Origin: a virus
DNA: 28,360 nt
Strand: one strand, 5' to 3'
IMG/VR virus record: IMGVR_UViG_3300050120_000186
Span: 1 to 28,360 of that record
The notes under the pieces were generated by a model. That model made no database searches. It was given only the letters and a program-made list of their open reading frames with translations, and was not told where the DNA came from. Below are positions 5,549 through 28,360 of this stretch, in pieces. Position 1 is the first letter of the stretch; each line of letters opens with the position of its first letter. The position numbers and the translations under genes are program-made.

Positions 5549-5572
5549 CAAAGGGGATTAATTTCCCCTTTG
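5549..5572 (+). terminator. Hairpin after the sheath gene
   Basis: A perfect 9-bp stem, CAAAGGGGA with TCCCCTTTG, around loop TTAATT, 5 bases after the gene 18 stop. Outer GGTC (5546-5549) and GACC (5577-5580) could extend it. There is no run of T after the stem, so it is either a weak terminator or a 3'-end stabiliser for the abundant sheath mRNA. Confidence 0.6.
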
Positions 5573-8058: not shown

Positions 8059-8367
8059 ATGGACTTAAAACAAATTGTAACTACCATTGTCAATGGTAAA
8101 GCAAACGAAAAAACGGCTAATGCTATTAGAGCCAATCTTACTGAACGTAAGGATGCCCTGATTCAATCAGGCAAGAGAGCTATGTTCGCTTCGATCTTTG
8201 AAGCCGATGGCGATGATGATGGATCGTGGTTTGCCGTGAAAGATGGCAATGCTACGCAAGGTCCATTTGACAGCAAATCGGACGCAGATGATGCCTGTGG
8301 CGACGATGAAAAATCGGCCTATGGAACCAAGGACAGTGACGGTAAATTTACTGCTTCTGGTACATAA
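8059..8367 (+). CDS. 67: Prohead core protein, gp67-like
   Basis: A 102-aa acidic protein between the portal and protease genes, where T4 has gene 67 (80 aa). In T4, gp67 is an internal prohead core component, essential for correct head shape and degraded by gp21. The N-terminal half is a helix of mixed charge (ERKDALIQSGKRAMFASIFE), similar in pattern to T4 'TIDLIKEEKIAIARNFLIE'. The C-terminal half is Asp-rich (DGDDDG, DADDACGDDE) like the T4 acidic tail. An AAAAGG site precedes the ATG. Assigned by position and composition. Confidence 0.8.
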   Translation: MDLKQIVTTIVNGKANEKTANAIRANLTERKDALIQSGKRAMFASIFEADGDDDGSWFAVKDGNATQGPFDSKSDADDACGDDEKSAYGTKDSDGKFTASGT

Positions 8368-10131: not shown

Positions 10132-10139
10132 ACTAAGTA
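10132..10139 (+). promoter_or_regulatory. Candidate late promoter for gene 23 (ACTAAGTA)
   Basis: ACTAAGTA ends 25 nt before the capsid ATG, followed by AAAGGA as the ribosome-binding site. A small inverted repeat, TTCAAT / ATTGAA (10110-10127), lies directly upstream. It is identical to the boxes of genes 18, 67 and the Hoc-like gene, and T4 has its strongest late promoter at this position. Confidence 0.65.
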
Positions 10140-11495: not shown

Positions 11496-11525
11496 AAAAA
11501 GCCTAGATTTCGGTCTAGGCTTTTT
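11496..11525. terminator. Bidirectional intrinsic terminator between gene 23 and the homing endonuclease
   Basis: A perfect 12-bp stem, AAAAAGCCTAGA with TCTAGGCTTTTT, around loop TTTCGG. The A-run on one side and T-run on the other allow termination of rightward gene 23 transcripts and of the leftward endonuclease transcript, whose stop is 3 bases away. Confidence 0.9.
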
Positions 11526-11528
11526 GCA

Positions 11529-13193
11529 TTACTTCATTCCAAACACTAAGTTTCCGCAGTCAAATATCTTATTAAAACCTGCTATAAACATATTTTCACT
11601 TTCTGACATTTCGGAATTATATGAATTTCCAAGTAGTTCAGGCAGTTTATGTTTCTGTGCAGCTAATCGACCGACAACTTTAGAACCTTTGACATATTCA
11701 TAGTTGGGGACACTTGACCCCATTGCTTCAAATCCAAGCATTTTATATAGATTTCCGTCACTAAACCTACGATTCGCATAAGTGATAATATTGTCAATTC
11801 CTGATTTTCTGGCGTGTGAAAGTAATTTCGACGCACCACCAATCACGGTAAACCCTAGCTTATTGCAAAATCTATACAATTCATGACTGAAATTTTTATT
11901 AAAACGTGGCGTGAGGAAAGTCATAAGGCAAACCAATTCATCGTCTAGGTATAATCCATAGCGATCTTTCCCCAGGACACCCGCACCTTGAATGTGATTC
12001 TTCAATAAGAATTGTCTAGCTTCATCGGCAGCTACATTTTTGACGATAGTTTTTCTGGCGTAAATTCTTTGATTTACACCTATACGCGAAAGAATCATTG
12101 ATTTGACAATTTCGGGCTTTTCATATATTTCGGTATCCCAAAAATGCAATAGAGTAATCCCAAGTTCTTGGGCTTTTAATGTCTTCTTAAGATGATACTG
12201 GTCGGTTTTATTCTTCCTACCGTCATGGTGCCAATAGACACCATTGATTTCAATTCCAAGCTTTCTGTCTGGAATATAGATATCAATTTCTTGACCATCC
12301 AAAATTCTGGTGTTTTTCTCTATTGAATAACCTTCTAACCAATCCGATACTTCCTTTTCTATCATGCTAAATTTTGCTTTTTGACATCCTGGGCAGGCTC
12401 TATTTCCATTGACAATCCAATTCGGTTTAATCGAAAAATCTAAATCATGGATGTTGCAATGAAACAACGCTGGTTGACTAACTCCATTCCAGGTTGATTC
12501 AATCAGTGAAAATTCAGGTTTGTTTTCCTTAAGGAATACCATGAACCGCTCAAGTGATCCATCCAAAATCACTTTTTGAATTTCCGCAAATCGAATCTTA
12601 TATTCTTCAGATTCCTTACCCAAACGCATGTTCTGTTGAACTGAGGGAACCTGGGTGATATGATCCACCCCGTACTTTTCCTGTATGGTGGCTAAACGCT
12701 TTTCTTCTCGACTGGCAAGCGCATCCCCGGTCAAGGGATTGGCTTTCCTGATGTCGGATATCTTCTGGGCTATTCCGGGCGCGTGACTAACGTTTTCTAC
12801 CCCATAGCGTTCTAGATTGGTTTGCTTTTTCTTGGCTTCCCGCTGCTTCATGACTTCAGGGTCTTTTAACCGGGCTTGCATAGCTTTAGACCCGGCATCC
12901 TTATTAGGACGTTGGGCGCGGCATTGGACGGAACAATAGGCATTAAACATCCCACCAATCTTGGCTTGAAGGTTGATCTTGGATGGTTTTCCACAAATAC
13001 CACAAGCTAAATGTTCAGTAACATCCAGGCGTAATGCAGCAAGTCTTTGGGGGAATGTTGGGTTTACCAAGAAAGACGTTTCATCCAGAATATCCGTATA
13101 GACAGATGGAAATCTGTTCTGAACGAATTTCTCTGATATCCCTTTTGGGGTATCATGGTTCGCAATGAATTGCTTAATGGATTGTCTGCTCAT
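11529..13193 (-). CDS. Free-standing homing endonuclease, Vsr-like EDxHD type
   Basis: A 554-aa protein. The nuclease core is at residues about 300-360: EIDIYIPDRKLGIEINGVYW followed by HHD, then LLHFWDTEI. This is the Vsr-like fold with the EDxHD-type arrangement known from phage homing enzymes such as I-Bth0305I (D304, E315, H322-D324 are candidate catalytic residues). The N-terminus has a zinc-finger-like CxxC...CxxxC (C64, C67, C87, C91), a second CPGC (267-270) and two ERYGVEN/EKYGVDH repeats (about 128-180) that often bind DNA in such enzymes. The gene is not in an intron: it lies between genes in reverse orientation, with its own promoter and with terminators at both ends. The start codon is about where the promoter predicts transcription to begin. 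Confidence 0.88.
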   Translation of the reverse strand: MSRQSIKQFIANHDTPKGISEKFVQNRFPSVYTDILDETSFLVNPTFPQRLAALRLDVTEHLACGICGKPSKINLQAKIGGMFNAYCSVQCRAQRPNKDAGSKAMQARLKDPEVMKQREAKKKQTNLERYGVENVSHAPGIAQKISDIRKANPLTGDALASREEKRLATIQEKYGVDHITQVPSVQQNMRLGKESEEYKIRFAEIQKVILDGSLERFMVFLKENKPEFSLIESTWNGVSQPALFHCNIHDLDFSIKPNWIVNGNRACPGCQKAKFSMIEKEVSDWLEGYSIEKNTRILDGQEIDIYIPDRKLGIEINGVYWHHDGRKNKTDQYHLKKTLKAQELGITLLHFWDTEIYEKPEIVKSMILSRIGVNQRIYARKTIVKNVAADEARQFLLKNHIQGAGVLGKDRYGLYLDDELVCLMTFLTPRFNKNFSHELYRFCNKLGFTVIGGASKLLSHARKSGIDNIITYANRRFSDGNLYKMLGFEAMGSSVPNYEYVKGSKVVGRLAAQKHKLPELLGNSYNSEMSESENMFIAGFNKIFDCGNLVFGMK

Positions 13194-20445: not shown

Positions 20446-23133
20446 TTAGCTGAAGAAATCCATGATACTTGCCTGTGCCTCTGGATACCAGTTCAAGGTT
20501 TGAAGTAGGTTATTCAATGGCTCAATAAAGTTAGCATCCCAGTTACTGTCATAGTCCACAAACTTATGAAGGTTGAATTCCTTGGGCATGAAGGTTTGAA
20601 ATCCAATGACATCAATACCATAGGGATTGTTTTTCTTCAAACCTATCAGCATGATCTTTTCCCCTGAATTGATGGCAGGGACATCCATCATTCCTAGGTT
20701 CTTGATTAATAGATTATGATATAGCGCCGCTTTGACTTGTCGCGGTGCACCTTTGATATAGACAGTTCGGTCATCATGATACTGCTGAAGCTTATTGCAC
20801 GTCATGATCTTAGCAATTTCTTCTGCATCCAGGGAATAAAACTCTTTCTTTTTTTCCTTGACAAATGCCTGTAATGCCTTTTCGTCCTTGGTCAAAGCAA
20901 TCTTATAGCAGTCCTTTAACCACTCACGGGAACGCTTTGGAACGGTTCCTTTGATCGCATCAAGGCCAGTAATCTTTAGCTTGGGTTCCTTGTATCGTAC
21001 CCCTTCAGAATCGGTCACCAGCATGGTATAGCGTTTCTTGGCGGTCCAGATGGCTGCGGGTGCGATGTTTTCCCGCTTCATGAACATCCGGTTTTCATGA
21101 GCATTGACGTACTCGGCCAGTTCGGCAGTAGCCTCATTGATGACAGCTTGAATTTTTTCCTTGAATACTTTATCCAAAAACTCAGTCACTTCCCAGATGT
21201 CTGGGTCTTTACCGAATAGTTTTTCAACCAGTCCTTCAACCTTAATATAGACTGAATCCGTATCGGAATAGACGATGTAGGACGTACCTGTTACCATGAC
21301 ATCTACCTTACCATCGGGACCAATCCCATAGCGATGGGTGACCGTTCCAGTTCCTAGAATGGAATTCATCCATTCGTCCAGTTTGCGGCCAACCCAGGTG
21401 ATCGCCAACTGTCCAGATAGGGTAATCCCTTCCGCAATGCGTTTATCATAAAACTCAGTGAACCAACGATTACACAACGCGCCATAGCCTGCATTCAGAA
21501 CTACTTTCAATGAATTCTGTTTGGCATTCATGGATGAAATGATTGCCTTGTAAATGGTCTTTTGGGTTAAAACAACACAGTCAATTTCCTGTTGTTCGAC
21601 CTTTTTCATTTCTCCCTTGACTGCTTTCCGTCCCGAATAGATTTTTCTGGTAATCTCATTCAGGCAGGATATCTTATTCCGTCTGAAAAACTGACGATTA
21701 GCTGACATACAGACATCGTACTTTTTCAATAGGGACAGATCAACCCGTTTATTCAATAGATCATCTATTGTGAAGTTAGGTATTGCTCTTAACTCTGCCG
21801 GGATTTCCTCTGGTTCCAGGATCGTTTCTGGACCCATATTGTATTGTTGTTCGACGTGCGGATAGAGACTGTCATAGTCACCATTGACAACCCATAGATG
21901 TTTACCTAAAATAGGGGACTTAACAAATCCACCAGAAATGGATGCTGTCTCCGGTTGTGGTGCTTTGATTTCCACAAAAGTATTTTTGTTCTTTAGGAAG
22001 TCATATAACAAACTCGACCAGGGCGCAACCGTTCCTACCGTATCCTCATAGTTTGATTTGGTCAAATAGGCAATCGTGTAGGTCAATAACATGAATTGCT
22101 TCATGTCATCTAATCGCTTTACCAGATTCGCATCGATGATGTTATAGTTGATAAAGTGTTTAAAATCAGTGATATACAGCGTATTCAAGCCGCCTGCATC
22201 GTCGTAGGATAGCTTTTCTTCATCTAGAATCAACTGAGCCACAGTATTCAATTTCCAGTTTTCAGGCTGGATAAATCCATGTTTTTCAAAGATCATTTTC
22301 ATGTCAAGGGCCGCAATACCCATGACATCATAGTATTTGATTTCCCCACCAAATTTGTCTTTTTCGGTTCTGGGATATATAATTCCCCATGGGGACAGTT
22401 CTTTAGCCCGATCTTCGCCCAATTGATTCTTGATACGATTGACCATATAGGTCATGTCAAAGTCGGTAGAATTCCAACCAGAATACCAATCAAGCTGTTT
22501 GGCCGACCAAAATTGAATGAATGCGTTCAATAGATCAAACTCAGTATCAAATCCATGATACTTGATTTCCAATCCATCTAGACGCGGACCACCATCGGCA
22601 CGGGACCATGTGCCAATCTTTTTGTCCTTGAAGGTTTCTAAGGCAAATGTATGAAAGATACCATCATCGGTCGTGTACGCGGTGATCGCATTGATAGGGT
22701 AGTTGGCTTGTTCTGCATGAGGAAACGGGCCAGCAATGGGCTTTCCGTCTTCGCTGATGTCGCCTGAAAAGACTTCGATATCTAGGAATGTGCCCCGAAT
22801 AAGGCTAGGATCATATTCAATATCACCCTCAAAAAACTCTGAAATGAATTGATAGACAGGCTTTTTCATGCCATAGAACTTAAATCCTAGAACTTCCTTG
22901 TATCGCTCCATGAATTCATCCATGTCCTTCATGTTGTCAAAATTCATCTTTGACAATGGAATGCCTTTAATGGATGTGGCATCCGGTTCATGACCGTCAG
23001 GGGTATGAACATAAAGATAGGGTTGATAGGGGATTTTTTTCTGAATTTGACGCTTTGATTCAGTATCGTATCCGCGCAACAGAATTGAATTGCCTCTCTT
23101 GGCAATATTCGTGTAGAAAACGGTGTTTGACAT
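20446..23133 (-). CDS. 43: DNA polymerase, family B, gp43-like
   Basis: An 895-aa replicative polymerase (T4 gp43, 898 aa) with an intact proofreading exonuclease: ExoI LDIEVF (D118, E120), ExoII GWNSTDFD (D226) and ExoIII YNIID (D334). Polymerase motif A is GDYDSLYPH (D419), motif B KVVLNAGYG (K543, Y550), motif C YSDTDS (D624, D626), plus the KKRY block (AKKRYTMLVTD). The C-terminus ASIMDFFS resembles the T4 tail ASLFDMFDF that binds the sliding clamp gp45. Motif A has Tyr where T4/RB69 have Leu412, and motif B has NAG where they have NSL. It is encoded opposite to all neighbouring + strand genes. Confidence 0.98.
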   Translation of the reverse strand: MSNTVFYTNIAKRGNSILLRGYDTESKRQIQKKIPYQPYLYVHTPDGHEPDATSIKGIPLSKMNFDNMKDMDEFMERYKEVLGFKFYGMKKPVYQFISEFFEGDIEYDPSLIRGTFLDIEVFSGDISEDGKPIAGPFPHAEQANYPINAITAYTTDDGIFHTFALETFKDKKIGTWSRADGGPRLDGLEIKYHGFDTEFDLLNAFIQFWSAKQLDWYSGWNSTDFDMTYMVNRIKNQLGEDRAKELSPWGIIYPRTEKDKFGGEIKYYDVMGIAALDMKMIFEKHGFIQPENWKLNTVAQLILDEEKLSYDDAGGLNTLYITDFKHFINYNIIDANLVKRLDDMKQFMLLTYTIAYLTKSNYEDTVGTVAPWSSLLYDFLKNKNTFVEIKAPQPETASISGGFVKSPILGKHLWVVNGDYDSLYPHVEQQYNMGPETILEPEEIPAELRAIPNFTIDDLLNKRVDLSLLKKYDVCMSANRQFFRRNKISCLNEITRKIYSGRKAVKGEMKKVEQQEIDCVVLTQKTIYKAIISSMNAKQNSLKVVLNAGYGALCNRWFTEFYDKRIAEGITLSGQLAITWVGRKLDEWMNSILGTGTVTHRYGIGPDGKVDVMVTGTSYIVYSDTDSVYIKVEGLVEKLFGKDPDIWEVTEFLDKVFKEKIQAVINEATAELAEYVNAHENRMFMKRENIAPAAIWTAKKRYTMLVTDSEGVRYKEPKLKITGLDAIKGTVPKRSREWLKDCYKIALTKDEKALQAFVKEKKKEFYSLDAEEIAKIMTCNKLQQYHDDRTVYIKGAPRQVKAALYHNLLIKNLGMMDVPAINSGEKIMLIGLKKNNPYGIDVIGFQTFMPKEFNLHKFVDYDSNWDANFIEPLNNLLQTLNWYPEAQASIMDFFS

Positions 23134-23150
23134 ACTTTAGTTTTACCTTT

Positions 23151-23158
23151 GATAAATA
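23151..23158 (+). promoter_or_regulatory. Possible late promoter for the tail-tube-fold gene (GATAAATA)
   Basis: GATAAATA differs from T4 TATAAATA at one base and ends 33 nt before the ATG at 23192, in the 58-base gap between divergent genes. It has A where the other boxes here have G, so confidence is moderate. Confidence 0.45.
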
Positions 23159-23191
23159 AGGGGAATGAAATATAACATGAGAAATTAGGAT

Positions 23192-23674
23192 ATGACGGAT
23201 ACCTTTAACGACAATACCAACATTGCGCAATCCAATCATTGGTATGCCCATATAGCCGGGTTTGATAATCTGTCCTATCAGATTAAGAATCTAACCATCC
23301 CATCGGTTTCATCTGGTGAAACAAATATGGGGACAGGTGGCTCTGGAACCACCCTGTACTTACCTGGGGATTCGATTGTTTATGATACCCTGCCGATGGA
23401 AATATTCTTATTGTCTGACTATTCCAATCACAATCAGATTGTCAAGTGGATGAAAAAGAATATCCGTGATCCTAAAGACTACAAGGACATTGTAATTCAC
23501 CTTATAGACGGTAACGGAAACATTTCAATTGAGAATTCCTTGCTTTTTAAGGAAGCATTCCCTATCAGTATTTCTGGTATACTATTGGATTCGGTGAATA
23601 CAAGCCCCAATATGTATTTTAATGTTACATTCCGATTTCTGGAATTTGACTATTTGAGTAACGAATTTAAATGA
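23192..23674 (+). CDS. Tail-tube-fold structural protein (160 aa)
   Basis: A virion protein, probably a relative of gp19. The sequence HWYAHIAGFDNLSYQIKNLTIPSV followed by LPGDSIVYDTLPMEIFLLSDYSNHNQIVKWMKK has the strand order and the 'L-D-x-N-x-x-IxxWM' segment of single-domain tail-tube proteins. The C-terminus (ISGILLDSVNTSPNMYFNVTFRFLEFDY) matches their final strands. T4 uses such folds in gp19 and in the tube-initiating baseplate proteins gp48 and gp54, but this protein is the size of gp19, not of gp54 (320 aa). It overlaps uvsY by 4 bases, so it is translated with recombination genes. Confidence 0.7.
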   Translation: MTDTFNDNTNIAQSNHWYAHIAGFDNLSYQIKNLTIPSVSSGETNMGTGGSGTTLYLPGDSIVYDTLPMEIFLLSDYSNHNQIVKWMKKNIRDPKDYKDIVIHLIDGNGNISIENSLLFKEAFPISISGILLDSVNTSPNMYFNVTFRFLEFDYLSNEFK

Positions 23675-24105
23675 CAACAGAATATTTTGAACAAATTGCG
23701 GCGGAAGTCAATGATCTAATGAAGATCAACTTCGAAGACTTAGACGCTGAAGCCTTACGCGGGACCGACATCTTCATCAAATTGAATATTGTATATAACC
23801 GCGAAGCAGCAAAATTGAAAGTCCTGGCATCCAAACTGGCTAAGACAGAACTATTACGCTGGCGATTCTATACAGGAAAGGCTGATCCAAAGGAATATGC
23901 CAATAATCGCTTTGTGGAATCCATCACCAAGACTGATGTTGACAAGTATCTGAAAGCCGATGAAATCCTGACTGAAGCCAAGGATGAATTTGAATCCCAG
24001 GACAGAGTAGTCAAGATGGTAGAGGATAGTATAAAAGCCAGTCGTAATCGACAATTTGACATAAAAAATGCAATCGAATGGCGTAAATTCCAATCTGGGG
24101 TTTAA
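23671..24105 (+). CDS. uvsY: Recombination mediator UvsY
   Basis: A 144-aa protein (T4 UvsY, 137 aa). UvsY displaces the single-strand-binding protein gp32 and loads the recombinase UvsX, which drives recombination-dependent replication. Two blocks align with T4: WRFYTGKADPKEYANNRF (T4 LDYYSGRGDGDEFSMDRY) and the C-terminal VEDSIKASRNRQFDIKNAIEWRKFQSG (T4 ALDAIKSRGFAIKHIQDMRAFEAG). The ATG overlaps the previous stop. It is followed within 3 bases by the nuclease gene and then uvsW, a recombination block like T4's uvsW-uvsY neighbourhood but in a different order. Confidence 0.9.
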   Translation: MTTEYFEQIAAEVNDLMKINFEDLDAEALRGTDIFIKLNIVYNREAAKLKVLASKLAKTELLRWRFYTGKADPKEYANNRFVESITKTDVDKYLKADEILTEAKDEFESQDRVVKMVEDSIKASRNRQFDIKNAIEWRKFQSGV

Positions 24106-24108
24106 CCC

Positions 24109-24804
24109 ATGGTTAGCCTCACTGCATTGAAACCAAAGGTCTTTACCTTTGATGTAGGAAATTTTCCTGAATGTGAAGTTATTCAGACTGAATCCGATGG
24201 ACGCAGGTATATTACACCGCAAGGAAATGTATACGATTCGACCACTACCTTCCTGAACAAGCATATGGATAAGTCAGGCATTGAAAAATGGCGTGACTGG
24301 AAAGGCCATGAAAAGGCCGATGCTATACGGGATCGTGCTGCGGATCGCGGAACCCAACTCCATGGCAACCTGGAACGAATGTTAAAGGGTGAACCCCTGG
24401 AAGCCAGCGCCTATTTCAGACTCCTAAAACGCTTTGAACCGACCCTAAAAGCCAACCTCGGAACCATCAAAGCAATTGAAAATTGCCTGTATTCTGATCA
24501 TATGAAGCTGGCTGGTCGTGTGGACTTGATGGGTCTGTGGAAGAATGAATTCGCTACCATTGATTTTAAGGGCGCGGATCGGATCAAAAAAGAAGTCAAT
24601 ATCACAAGCTATTTCCTACAGACGACCATCTATAGCCTGATGCATTATGATATGACAGACATCATGCCGACCAAAATTGTACTATTGATCTGTCCGGAAA
24701 AGGAAACCTACCTACAGGTGTTTGAAAAATCGCCGTTGGATTACGTCGAACAGGTTGAAAAATTCCTAGGTTTCAAGACCAAATGGAGTTTGGACAACCC
24801 CTAA
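24109..24804 (+). CDS. PD-(D/E)XK exonuclease, RecB/MGME1-like
   Basis: A 231-aa nuclease of the PD-(D/E)XK superfamily. Visible motifs are GTQLHGNLERML (H85), a possible Glu at 124, LAGRVDLMG (D139), ATIDFKGADR (D152 and K154 as the D-x-K pair) and a QxxxY motif (Q171, QTTIYSLM). This order (H, E, GRxD, IDFK, Qxx-Y) is that of RecB-type domains and the mitochondrial exonuclease MGME1, which degrade single-stranded ends. Between uvsY and uvsW it probably trims ends or flaps during recombination-dependent replication (inference). No clear ribosome-binding site, so it may be translated by coupling to uvsY. Confidence 0.88.
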   Translation: MVSLTALKPKVFTFDVGNFPECEVIQTESDGRRYITPQGNVYDSTTTFLNKHMDKSGIEKWRDWKGHEKADAIRDRAADRGTQLHGNLERMLKGEPLEASAYFRLLKRFEPTLKANLGTIKAIENCLYSDHMKLAGRVDLMGLWKNEFATIDFKGADRIKKEVNITSYFLQTTIYSLMHYDMTDIMPTKIVLLICPEKETYLQVFEKSPLDYVEQVEKFLGFKTKWSLDNP

Positions 24805-24806
24805 AC

Positions 24807-24814
24807 CCTAAGTA
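24807..24814 (+). promoter_or_regulatory. Candidate late promoter for uvsW (CCTAAGTA)
   Basis: CCTAAGTA ends 29 nt before the uvsW ATG. Its last three bases form the start of an inverted repeat. By T4 spacing (box at -13 to -6) transcription would begin at A24820, almost at the end of the repeat's left arm. Confidence 0.55.
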
Positions 24815-24843
24815 CGTCTATAGAAGCCAACATATAGACGTAC
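24812..24843 (+). promoter_or_regulatory. Hairpin abutting the uvsW start codon
   Basis: An 11-bp perfect inverted repeat, GTACGTCTATA (24812-24822) and TATAGACGTAC (24833-24843), with loop GAAGCCAACA. The right arm ends on the base before ATG, so in a transcript that includes both arms the translation start region is in a helix. A transcript from the overlapping late box would lose all but the last three bases of the left arm. Confidence 0.75.
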
Positions 24844-26343
24844 ATGCCGGATATTATAATTGAAAAGATCAACGCTTCATTTCTGAAACTGCATGCCGAT
24901 GAAGGGGTATCACGCCACCTTTATGAGGCATTCAGATACAACAAACCCAAATTTCAGAAAAATCCCTATACCAAATGGGATGGTGTTGTCAGATTGTTCA
25001 ACCTGAAAACTAAACGTTTCCCAACAGGATTGTTAGGGGAACTGCTAAAGTTCTGCTCTGAACATAATTATAGCTTCGAAGTAGACCCAACTCTGAAAGA
25101 AGATATTATTTCGATTGATAAATCGGATGTAGATGAGTGGGCACTTTCCTTGGACGTTCATTCCAAGGGCGAACCCATCATCCCCTATGAGTACCAATTA
25201 GAAGCCCTGCATCTATCGGTCACCTATGGGCGTCTTTTACTCTTAGCCGCAACGTCTGCTGGCAAATCCCTGATTACCTATTACCTTGCCCGTTGGTATG
25301 GTGAAATTGGCTATGAATCAGGAAAAACCCTCATTATAGTTCCTTCCATTGGATTAGTCAGTCAACTTTACAAAGACTTTCAAGACTATTCCAGTGCTAA
25401 TGGATGGGATGTCCAAGGGGAAGTTCACTGCATTTCTGAAGGGGCAGAACGCCAATCCAACAAAAACATCTTCATTTCCACATGGCAATCACTTCTAAAG
25501 CAGGATGATGACTATTTCCTACAGTTTGCTCGGATCATTATCGATGAAGCCCATTTGGCATCTGGCGATTCCATTACCCATGTCTGTAACAAATCCATTT
25601 TTGCTGACAAGCGAATTGGAATGACCGGAACCTTGAATGGAACTGAAATGCATGAAATGCAGGTTACCAGTCTGACTGGACTTCCGGTTCGCATCGTGAC
25701 CACTAAACAGCTACAGGACAAAGGACGCGCAGCTAAGACATTGGTCACATTCTTGAACCTGGACTATCCGACACAAGATAGAAGAACCGTTTACGTGGGC
25801 AGCTACCAGGATGAAATTGAATTTCTGGTTAATCACCCTTATCGGAATAAGGTTATTAAGACTTTGGCAATGTCTCTGACAGGTAATAGCCTTTTATTAT
25901 TCGGGCGTCGTGATACCCATTGCGTCAAGCTATTTGATGAACTGGTCGCCATGAATTTACCCGGAAAGAAATTTCATCTGATCGTTGGCGGTGTTGATGC
26001 GGATGAACGGGACGATATTCGGTTTTCCTTGGAAAGTTCGGAAGACGGAATTGACCATATCATCTTTGCCACGGCCAAATCGGCTTCGACTGGGATGTCA
26101 ATCAAGAAATTGCATAATTTGGTGATTTGTCACCCTAATAAGTCATTAGTACAGACCCTGCAATCGTTGGGAAGAATGCTCAGATTACACGATTCCAAGG
26201 ATGTCGCTCACATCTTTGACATTATTGATGACCTAGAACATATGAATAAAGCAAATAAAACTTTGGAACACGGGACAGAACGGTACGGTTTTTACCATGC
26301 AGAAGGGCATACAATACAGGTACAAAAATATAAAGTCAATTGA
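24844..26343 (+). CDS. uvsW: DNA/RNA helicase UvsW
   Basis: A 499-aa superfamily-2 helicase (T4 UvsW about 500 aa) that unwinds R-loops and branched DNA and switches T4 from origin to recombination-dependent replication. The N-terminal domain aligns with T4 (TKWDGVVRLFNLKTKRFPTG; T4 NWDGRIRLLDYNRLLPFG), which fixes the start. Helicase motifs are ATSAGKS (136-142), DEAH (234-237), MTGTL (260-264) and the C-terminal QSLGRMLR. No Shine-Dalgarno sequence is visible before the ATG; a hairpin with an embedded late box is there instead. The stop is 3 bases before the deaminase start. Confidence 0.96.
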   Translation: MPDIIIEKINASFLKLHADEGVSRHLYEAFRYNKPKFQKNPYTKWDGVVRLFNLKTKRFPTGLLGELLKFCSEHNYSFEVDPTLKEDIISIDKSDVDEWALSLDVHSKGEPIIPYEYQLEALHLSVTYGRLLLLAATSAGKSLITYYLARWYGEIGYESGKTLIIVPSIGLVSQLYKDFQDYSSANGWDVQGEVHCISEGAERQSNKNIFISTWQSLLKQDDDYFLQFARIIIDEAHLASGDSITHVCNKSIFADKRIGMTGTLNGTEMHEMQVTSLTGLPVRIVTTKQLQDKGRAAKTLVTFLNLDYPTQDRRTVYVGSYQDEIEFLVNHPYRNKVIKTLAMSLTGNSLLLFGRRDTHCVKLFDELVAMNLPGKKFHLIVGGVDADERDDIRFSLESSEDGIDHIIFATAKSASTGMSIKKLHNLVICHPNKSLVQTLQSLGRMLRLHDSKDVAHIFDIIDDLEHMNKANKTLEHGTERYGFYHAEGHTIQVQKYKVN

Positions 26344-27632: not shown

Positions 27633-27673
27633 TTGAAGCTTTAATTCCACTAAGTAAAGGGATAAAGCTTCAA
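27633..27673 (+). promoter_or_regulatory. Inverted repeat with embedded late box before the Ig-repeat gene
   Basis: An 11-bp perfect inverted repeat, TTGAAGCTTTA (27633-27643) and TAAAGCTTCAA (27663-27673), extended inward by TCC/GGA (27646-27648, 27660-27662). The loop contains ACTAAGTA at 27649-27656. With T4 spacing a late transcript would start near A27662 and lack the left arm. The ribosome-binding site AAGGA (27682-27686) is outside the stem. Confidence 0.7.
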
Positions 27674-27692: not shown

Positions 27693-28360
27693 ATGGCCGT
27701 AACTTTTAAATCCCCTGCTGCGCGTGCGGCTGTGAAACTGTACCCTGATGCGTATGTAACGAGCAAGGGTATTGTTCACGATCTACCTTTTCATGATTTA
27801 CCTGAATTGCTGGTTTCTTTCATTGGAACCCCGACCCAATCAGGCTCAGGTGTAATTCCTGCTAATACCGTTGTGCCTGTGATTTCCGGCACGGTTGCTG
27901 TGGGTCAAGAATTGTCAGTCACCCATGGTACTTGGACGGGTAGCCCTGCTCCACATATCACCTTCCAATGGAAAGCGGGTGGTGTTGCTATTACGGGCGC
28001 GACAAGCGATACCTATATTCTTACTACGGCAGAAAAGAACAAGGCCATTACGGTCACTGCCACGGGAACGAATGCTACGGGTAATGTGAGTGTCACGACA
28101 ACGGCAACTGCCTTGGTTCCTGCCGCCCCGGTTAATACCGCTATTCCTGCAATCACGGGAACTGCTAAAGTTGGTCAAACATTGACCACTTCAAATGGTA
28201 GCTGGACTGGTTCACCCACTCCGACCTACACCTATCAATGGATGTCAGGTGCAACGGTTATTGCTGGTGCTACTGCCGGAACCTATGTTCCTGTGACTGG
28301 CGATATTGGTGCCTTGATTACCGTAGTTGTTAAAGCTACTAACTCTGCTGGTAACGCGTC
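27693..28360 (+). CDS. Ig-like repeat protein, Hoc-like capsid decoration candidate (3' partial)
   Basis: An open frame of 222 codons that runs off the window. After a 45-residue non-repeat N-terminus (MAVTFKSPAARAAVKLYPDA, then a GIVHDLPFHDLPELLVSF segment) come Ig-like domains. The first is about residues 55-145: VPVISGTVAVGQELSVTHGTW, FQWKAGG and then ITVTATGTNATGN. The second starts at about 150: IPAITGTAKVGQTLTTSNGSW, YQWMSG and then ITVVVKATNSAGN. These are typical bacterial/phage Ig-type domains used for surface adhesion. T4 Hoc has such domains and its gene is also near uvsW, so a head decoration protein is likely; a tail or fibre protein is possible. AAGGA precedes the ATG. Confidence 0.8.
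   Translation, partial: MAVTFKSPAARAAVKLYPDAYVTSKGIVHDLPFHDLPELLVSFIGTPTQSGSGVIPANTVVPVISGTVAVGQELSVTHGTWTGSPAPHITFQWKAGGVAITGATSDTYILTTAEKNKAITVTATGTNATGNVSVTTTATALVPAAPVNTAIPAITGTAKVGQTLTTSNGSWTGSPTPTYTYQWMSGATVIAGATAGTYVPVTGDIGALITVVVKATNSAGNA

Follow-up and report, generated by a model that had tools for sequence, protein, structure and literature searches.

The uvsW locus analyzed here raises the question of what function a perfect inverted repeat could have that runs up to a start codon and overlaps a late-promoter box. The window, i.e. the whole stretch of DNA under study, is a virus record of 28,360 bases with T4-like genes. On its plus strand uvsY (23671-24105) is followed by a putative exonuclease gene (exo, 24109-24804) and directly downstream by uvsW (24844-26343), which encodes a helicase of 499 amino acids. 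The latter was assigned by similarity to phage UvsW/helicase proteins, being 44-45% identical to its counterparts in Delftia phage PhiW-14 (UvsW) and Pseudomonas phage Cygsa01 (helicase). In alignments, the homologues match from residue 1 onward, and a stop codon (TAG) lies three in-frame codons before ATG 24844. Thus, ATG 24844 is likely the uvsW start. The exo stop codon at 24804 leaves a gap of 39 nt which holds both the late box and the inverted repeat. A scan of the plus strand between exo and uvsW revealed no terminator-like site, and matches to sigma-70 promoters near uvsW were found at chance level only. The genes uvsY and exo, which precede uvsW on the same strand and for which early/middle timing is presumed, are the presumed source of read-through RNA.

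Inverted-repeat search and RNA folding placed the left arm GTACGTCTATA at positions 24812-24822 and a 10-nt loop GAAGCCAACA at 24823-24832, both on the plus strand. The right arm TATAGACGTAC (24833-24843, plus strand) corresponds to uvsW positions -11 to -1. The arms are complementary at 11 of 11 positions and the last base directly precedes ATG 24844, which confirms the perfect 11-bp repeat reported in the preliminary description. When the 101-nt uvsW leader region was dinucleotide-shuffled 3000 times, a perfect arm of at least 11 bp (loop 3-20) appeared twice. Perfect repeats of at least 11 bp were also detected at four further sites in the 28-kb window. Thus, it is the position of the uvsW repeat, not its existence, that is striking.

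The late-promoter box CCTAAGTA is located at 24807-24814 (plus strand) and overlaps the beginning of the left arm by three bases. In T4 the late box spans -13 to -6 relative to the transcription start (PMC1524935). According to this rule late transcription of uvsW is predicted to start at position 24820 on the plus strand (box end + 6), and most of the left arm would be missing from the late mRNA. In the whole window TAAGTA is not enriched overall (10 found, 10 expected). Seven of the ten copies are located 25-55 nt upstream of a same-strand gene start, namely 55, 30, 30, 25, 31, 35 and 43 nt before genes 18, 19, 20, the gene at 8059, gene 23, uvsW and the gene at 27694, respectively. The longer motif CTAAGTA is enriched, with five copies in the window, all on the plus strand, a number reached in 1 of 100 shuffles. 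As for T4-like late promoters, where TATAAATA-type boxes stand upstream of structural genes, CTAAGTA or ATAAGTA precedes genes 18, 19, 20 and 23; the gene 23 box CTAAGTA (10133-10139, plus strand) was used for box validation. In relatives CTAAATA or CTAAGTA boxes were found ahead of genes 18-23, and the late box of Aeh1 is CTAAATA (PMC1524935). This placement agrees with the earlier view that the sequence overlapping the left arm is of the local late-box type.

RNA folding of 24807-24843 yielded -13.4 kcal/mol (z -6.6). For a long RNA starting at or before 24812 the computed unpaired probability of bases -11 to -1 was 0.00. It was about 0.56 for RNAs starting at or after 24818, including the expected +1 at 24820, and its mean exceeded 0.5 for starts from 24817 on. 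The box ends at 24814. A late RNA beginning at 24820 would lack most of the 5' arm, would be unable to form the stem and would have an open start region, as had been proposed from the position of the box. The uvsW AUG lies outside the stem and is mostly unpaired in both RNAs, with a value of about 80% for the long RNA. Therefore, the proposal that the long RNA hides the start holds for the fully paired bases -11 to -1 and not for the AUG itself. No Shine-Dalgarno sequence is visible in the leader either, in agreement with the preliminary description, the only candidate being GAAG about 18 nt upstream; the other late genes in the window, unlike uvsW, possess AAGGA-type Shine-Dalgarno sites. The stem thus hides the bases just before the start codon and not a Shine-Dalgarno sequence. 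A stem abutting the AUG is within the 30S footprint and should therefore inhibit initiation. The late uvsW mRNA, being devoid of a Shine-Dalgarno sequence, may itself be translated poorly.

The folding difference was quantified as the cost of opening positions -15 to +6 in the long RNA minus that in the RNA starting at box end + 6. The median difference was 4.4 kcal/mol for 33 uvsW leaders with a candidate box versus 1.3 kcal/mol for 68 other late-gene leaders (Mann-Whitney p 7e-9, uncorrected for relatedness). In a swap test each upstream part was replaced by those of 62 other late-gene leaders. A value of p ≤ 0.05 was reached by 16 of 33 uvsW leaders versus 3 of 68 controls. The positive controls T4 e, 49 and I-TevII scored 0/62 with differences of 11-14 kcal/mol, and soc was weaker. 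The uvsW leader of the window, with 5.2 kcal/mol, 3/62 swaps and 8/150 shuffles, is borderline alone and weaker than T4 e, 49 and I-TevII. Shuffling of the upstream part gave p values of mostly 0.01-0.11 for lineages with exo upstream, and 4 of 68 controls were at 0.05. In all these tests related leaders, which represent roughly ten independent lineages, were counted separately, so that the p values across phages are optimistic. Genes 18-23 showed no excess in the opening-energy, swap and shuffle tests. Hence, the hairpin was rejected as a general late-gene feature.

Other leaders and repeats in the window were also inspected. The leader of the gp3-like gene (23120-23230; ATG 23192; GATAAATA box just upstream), with which the gp3-uvsY-exo-uvsW run begins, likewise forms a fold over its start region; its scores were 0/62 (swap test) and 1/60 (shuffle test). 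It was rejected as a second general case of the switch because most gp3 leaders of relatives lack a fold covering the start. The late box CTAAGTA (27650-27656) that separates phoH from the gene at 27694 is flanked by another perfect 11-bp inverted repeat (27633-27673). The downstream Shine-Dalgarno sequence AAGGAA stays free, so this is not the same switch. A perfect 12-bp inverted repeat (AAAAAGCCTAGA/TCTAGGCTTTTT, 11496-11525) is located between the convergent gene 23 and a minus-strand ORF of 554 amino acids (11529-13193). This repeat has the appearance of a bidirectional terminator, and a homing endonuclease may be encoded by the ORF.

The preliminary description had made retention of the repeat in close relatives a test of its proposal. 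A blastn search of the uvsW region against the phage collection gave no match, and a search for relatives suited to base-pair covariation yielded none with more than 50% UvsW identity. Relatives, of which L060 is the nearest complete one (UvsW 48%, gene 23 67% identity), have lost the literal repeat. What occurs at uvsW, where exo precedes it on the same strand, are differently built hairpins overlapping a late box. In L060 the late box is at the same place, and AATGTCCGC before the box pairs with GCGGACATT in codons 2-4 and the start of the far side of the leader. The stem of Vibrio phage GR28A is GTTACTTCAT/ATGGAGTAAC; its left arm is overlapped by CTAAGTT and its right arm contains the Shine-Dalgarno sequence. 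The corresponding stems are CTTCTGT/ACAGGGG in Erwinia phage Bue1 and CACTAAATA/TATTTAGTG in the environmental contig L117. In L117 and in a second environmental contig, L164, the late box itself pairs with its complement near the uvsW start. Composite stems are found in several genera of Vi01-like phages: one part joins CTAA of the box to UUAG, or a close variant of it, immediately preceding the AUG, and the other is formed between the Shine-Dalgarno sequence and a C-rich stretch downstream of the box. In the ten aligned Vi01-like leaders the promoter dictates the left arm and thereby leaves little room for covariation. The partner arm in relatives thus lies on the Shine-Dalgarno sequence, the AUG or codons 2-5; the stems are unrelated in sequence and share the same arrangement. 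A clear stem of 7-8 bp is present in the uvsW leaders of Vibrio phages D506 and K475, but their CTATATA sequence is only a candidate box and they did not pass the shuffle test. Cyanophage-like uvsW genes begin at the stop codon of uvsY, lack a late box and are uninformative for this comparison.

Some peculiarities of uvsW itself were observed among the relatives. The gene is split in two pieces around residue 400 in Dickeya phage LIMEstone1 and is annotated as two helicase ORFs in D506 and K475. In L175, L176, L177 and L178 a TATAAATA- or ATAAATA-like sequence is placed so close to the uvsW ATG (about 8 nt upstream) that late uvsW mRNAs would be nearly leaderless.

Gene order provided a natural control. 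All 16 leaders with a same-strand exo gene directly upstream and the late box in the gap (Ackermannviridae and relatives) scored 8/62 or less in the swap test, a level also reached by 5 of the 17 remaining uvsW leaders; several of the "boxes" among these 17 are probably not promoters. Delftia phage PhiW-14 carries uvsY and exo on the opposite strand, so that read-through from them is impossible; here the late box is kept, no such hairpin is present and the score is 18/62. T4 uvsW likewise has no comparable hairpin at its start, and the nearest box found is located about 100 nt upstream inside segE. Thus, the leader structure tracks the risk of read-through as a translational switch predicts, an association that was noticed post hoc.

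These data bear on other explanations of the hairpin. It might serve the exo message as a 3'-end or processing element (a stabilizer, RNase site or weak terminator) and adjoin uvsW only incidentally. The hairpin indeed begins 8 nt after the exo stop codon, and GC-rich stems are found just upstream of other late boxes of the window, e.g. at 5549-5572 before gene 19. However, an intrinsic terminator consists of a G+C-rich stem and a subsequent T-run, and here the right arm is followed by ATGCCGG. Together with the negative plus-strand scan this led us to reject the terminator reading. Furthermore, the stem stops precisely where the ATG begins and shares bases with the late box, and the positions of the partner arms in relatives are not needed for 3' ends. 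We therefore consider a 3'-end element unlikely. That the repeat arose by chance and has no function is very unlikely: the four further repeats in the window and the modest significance of its own leader would fit, but it occupies the exact start-codon position over a real late box, was matched in only 2 of 3000 shuffles and recurs at uvsW and not at genes 18-23. Least probable is a protein-bound DNA or RNA operator controlling the late promoter or translation (e.g. autorepression or RegA-like binding), for which the perfect dyad symmetry over the promoter and the autorepression of T4 I-TevI at its own late promoter (PMC2988022) speak, since relatives share the pairing at the same place and not the repeat sequence, which points to RNA folding.

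Folding and comparative data instead support the interpretation already offered in the preliminary description, and the uvsW element probably acts as a cis-acting translational early-off/late-on switch of the T4 e/49/I-TevI kind. Early in infection, polymerase would read through uvsY and exo, and in the resulting long RNA the uvsW leader would form the 11-bp stem flush against the AUG. Binding of the 30S subunit would be blocked and no UvsW produced. Late in infection, a gp55-type polymerase would start at CCTAAGTA. The late RNA, beginning at about 24820 and devoid of most of the left arm, would leave the start region open, and UvsW could be made. In this arrangement the late promoter would contribute part of the left arm, i.e. 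promoter and RNA switch would share bases. The chances are about even that in Ackermannviridae and relatives with an exo-uvsW unit such a leader hairpin was built repeatedly from unrelated sequence, often with the late box as one arm, driven by strong selection for keeping UvsW off early, and that T4 with its other gene order has no need of it.

Early T4 origins are primed by R-loops, which UvsW unwinds, and T4 uvsW is expressed from a late promoter (PMC3016281). UvsW made too early should consequently damage replication start-up, and an early lock on the gene makes biological sense. If the switch operates as proposed, the early-to-late replication switch would have two safeguards, promoter choice and RNA folding. 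Several members of the phage family concerned (Vi01-like phages) can be grown in the laboratory.

Switches of this kind are well described elsewhere. Early-off/late-on leader hairpins are found in T4 e, soc and 49 (PMC3014915) and in I-TevI to III, segB and mobE (PMC2988022), and these reports, together with the late expression of T4 uvsW (PMC3016281), agree with the precedents named in the preliminary description. For uvsW no prior description was found in the open-access papers searched, as had been supposed. As in T4 e, 49 and soc, the late promoter is located in or beside the left arm, and the long early RNA is predicted to fold over the initiation region while the late RNA cannot (PMC3014915). 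In those T4 genes the stem covers the Shine-Dalgarno sequence and/or the AUG, whereas here it covers -11 to -1 in the absence of a Shine-Dalgarno sequence; uvsW codes for a recombination helicase, and a smaller effect is predicted for it. T4 uvsW, known for the R-loop shut-off at oriF and oriG, is the same gene and is expressed late (PMC3016281), but it lacks a comparable start hairpin. T4 I-TevI, I-TevII, I-TevIII and segB and Aeh1 mobE resemble the arrangement proposed here in that a late gene lies within earlier transcription units and its late RNA loses the inhibitory arm (PMC2988022). These genes are mobile elements inside or beside other genes, whereas uvsW is a core gene. The proposed switch would thus bring a textbook mechanism of T4 to a different phage family and to a core gene of recombination.
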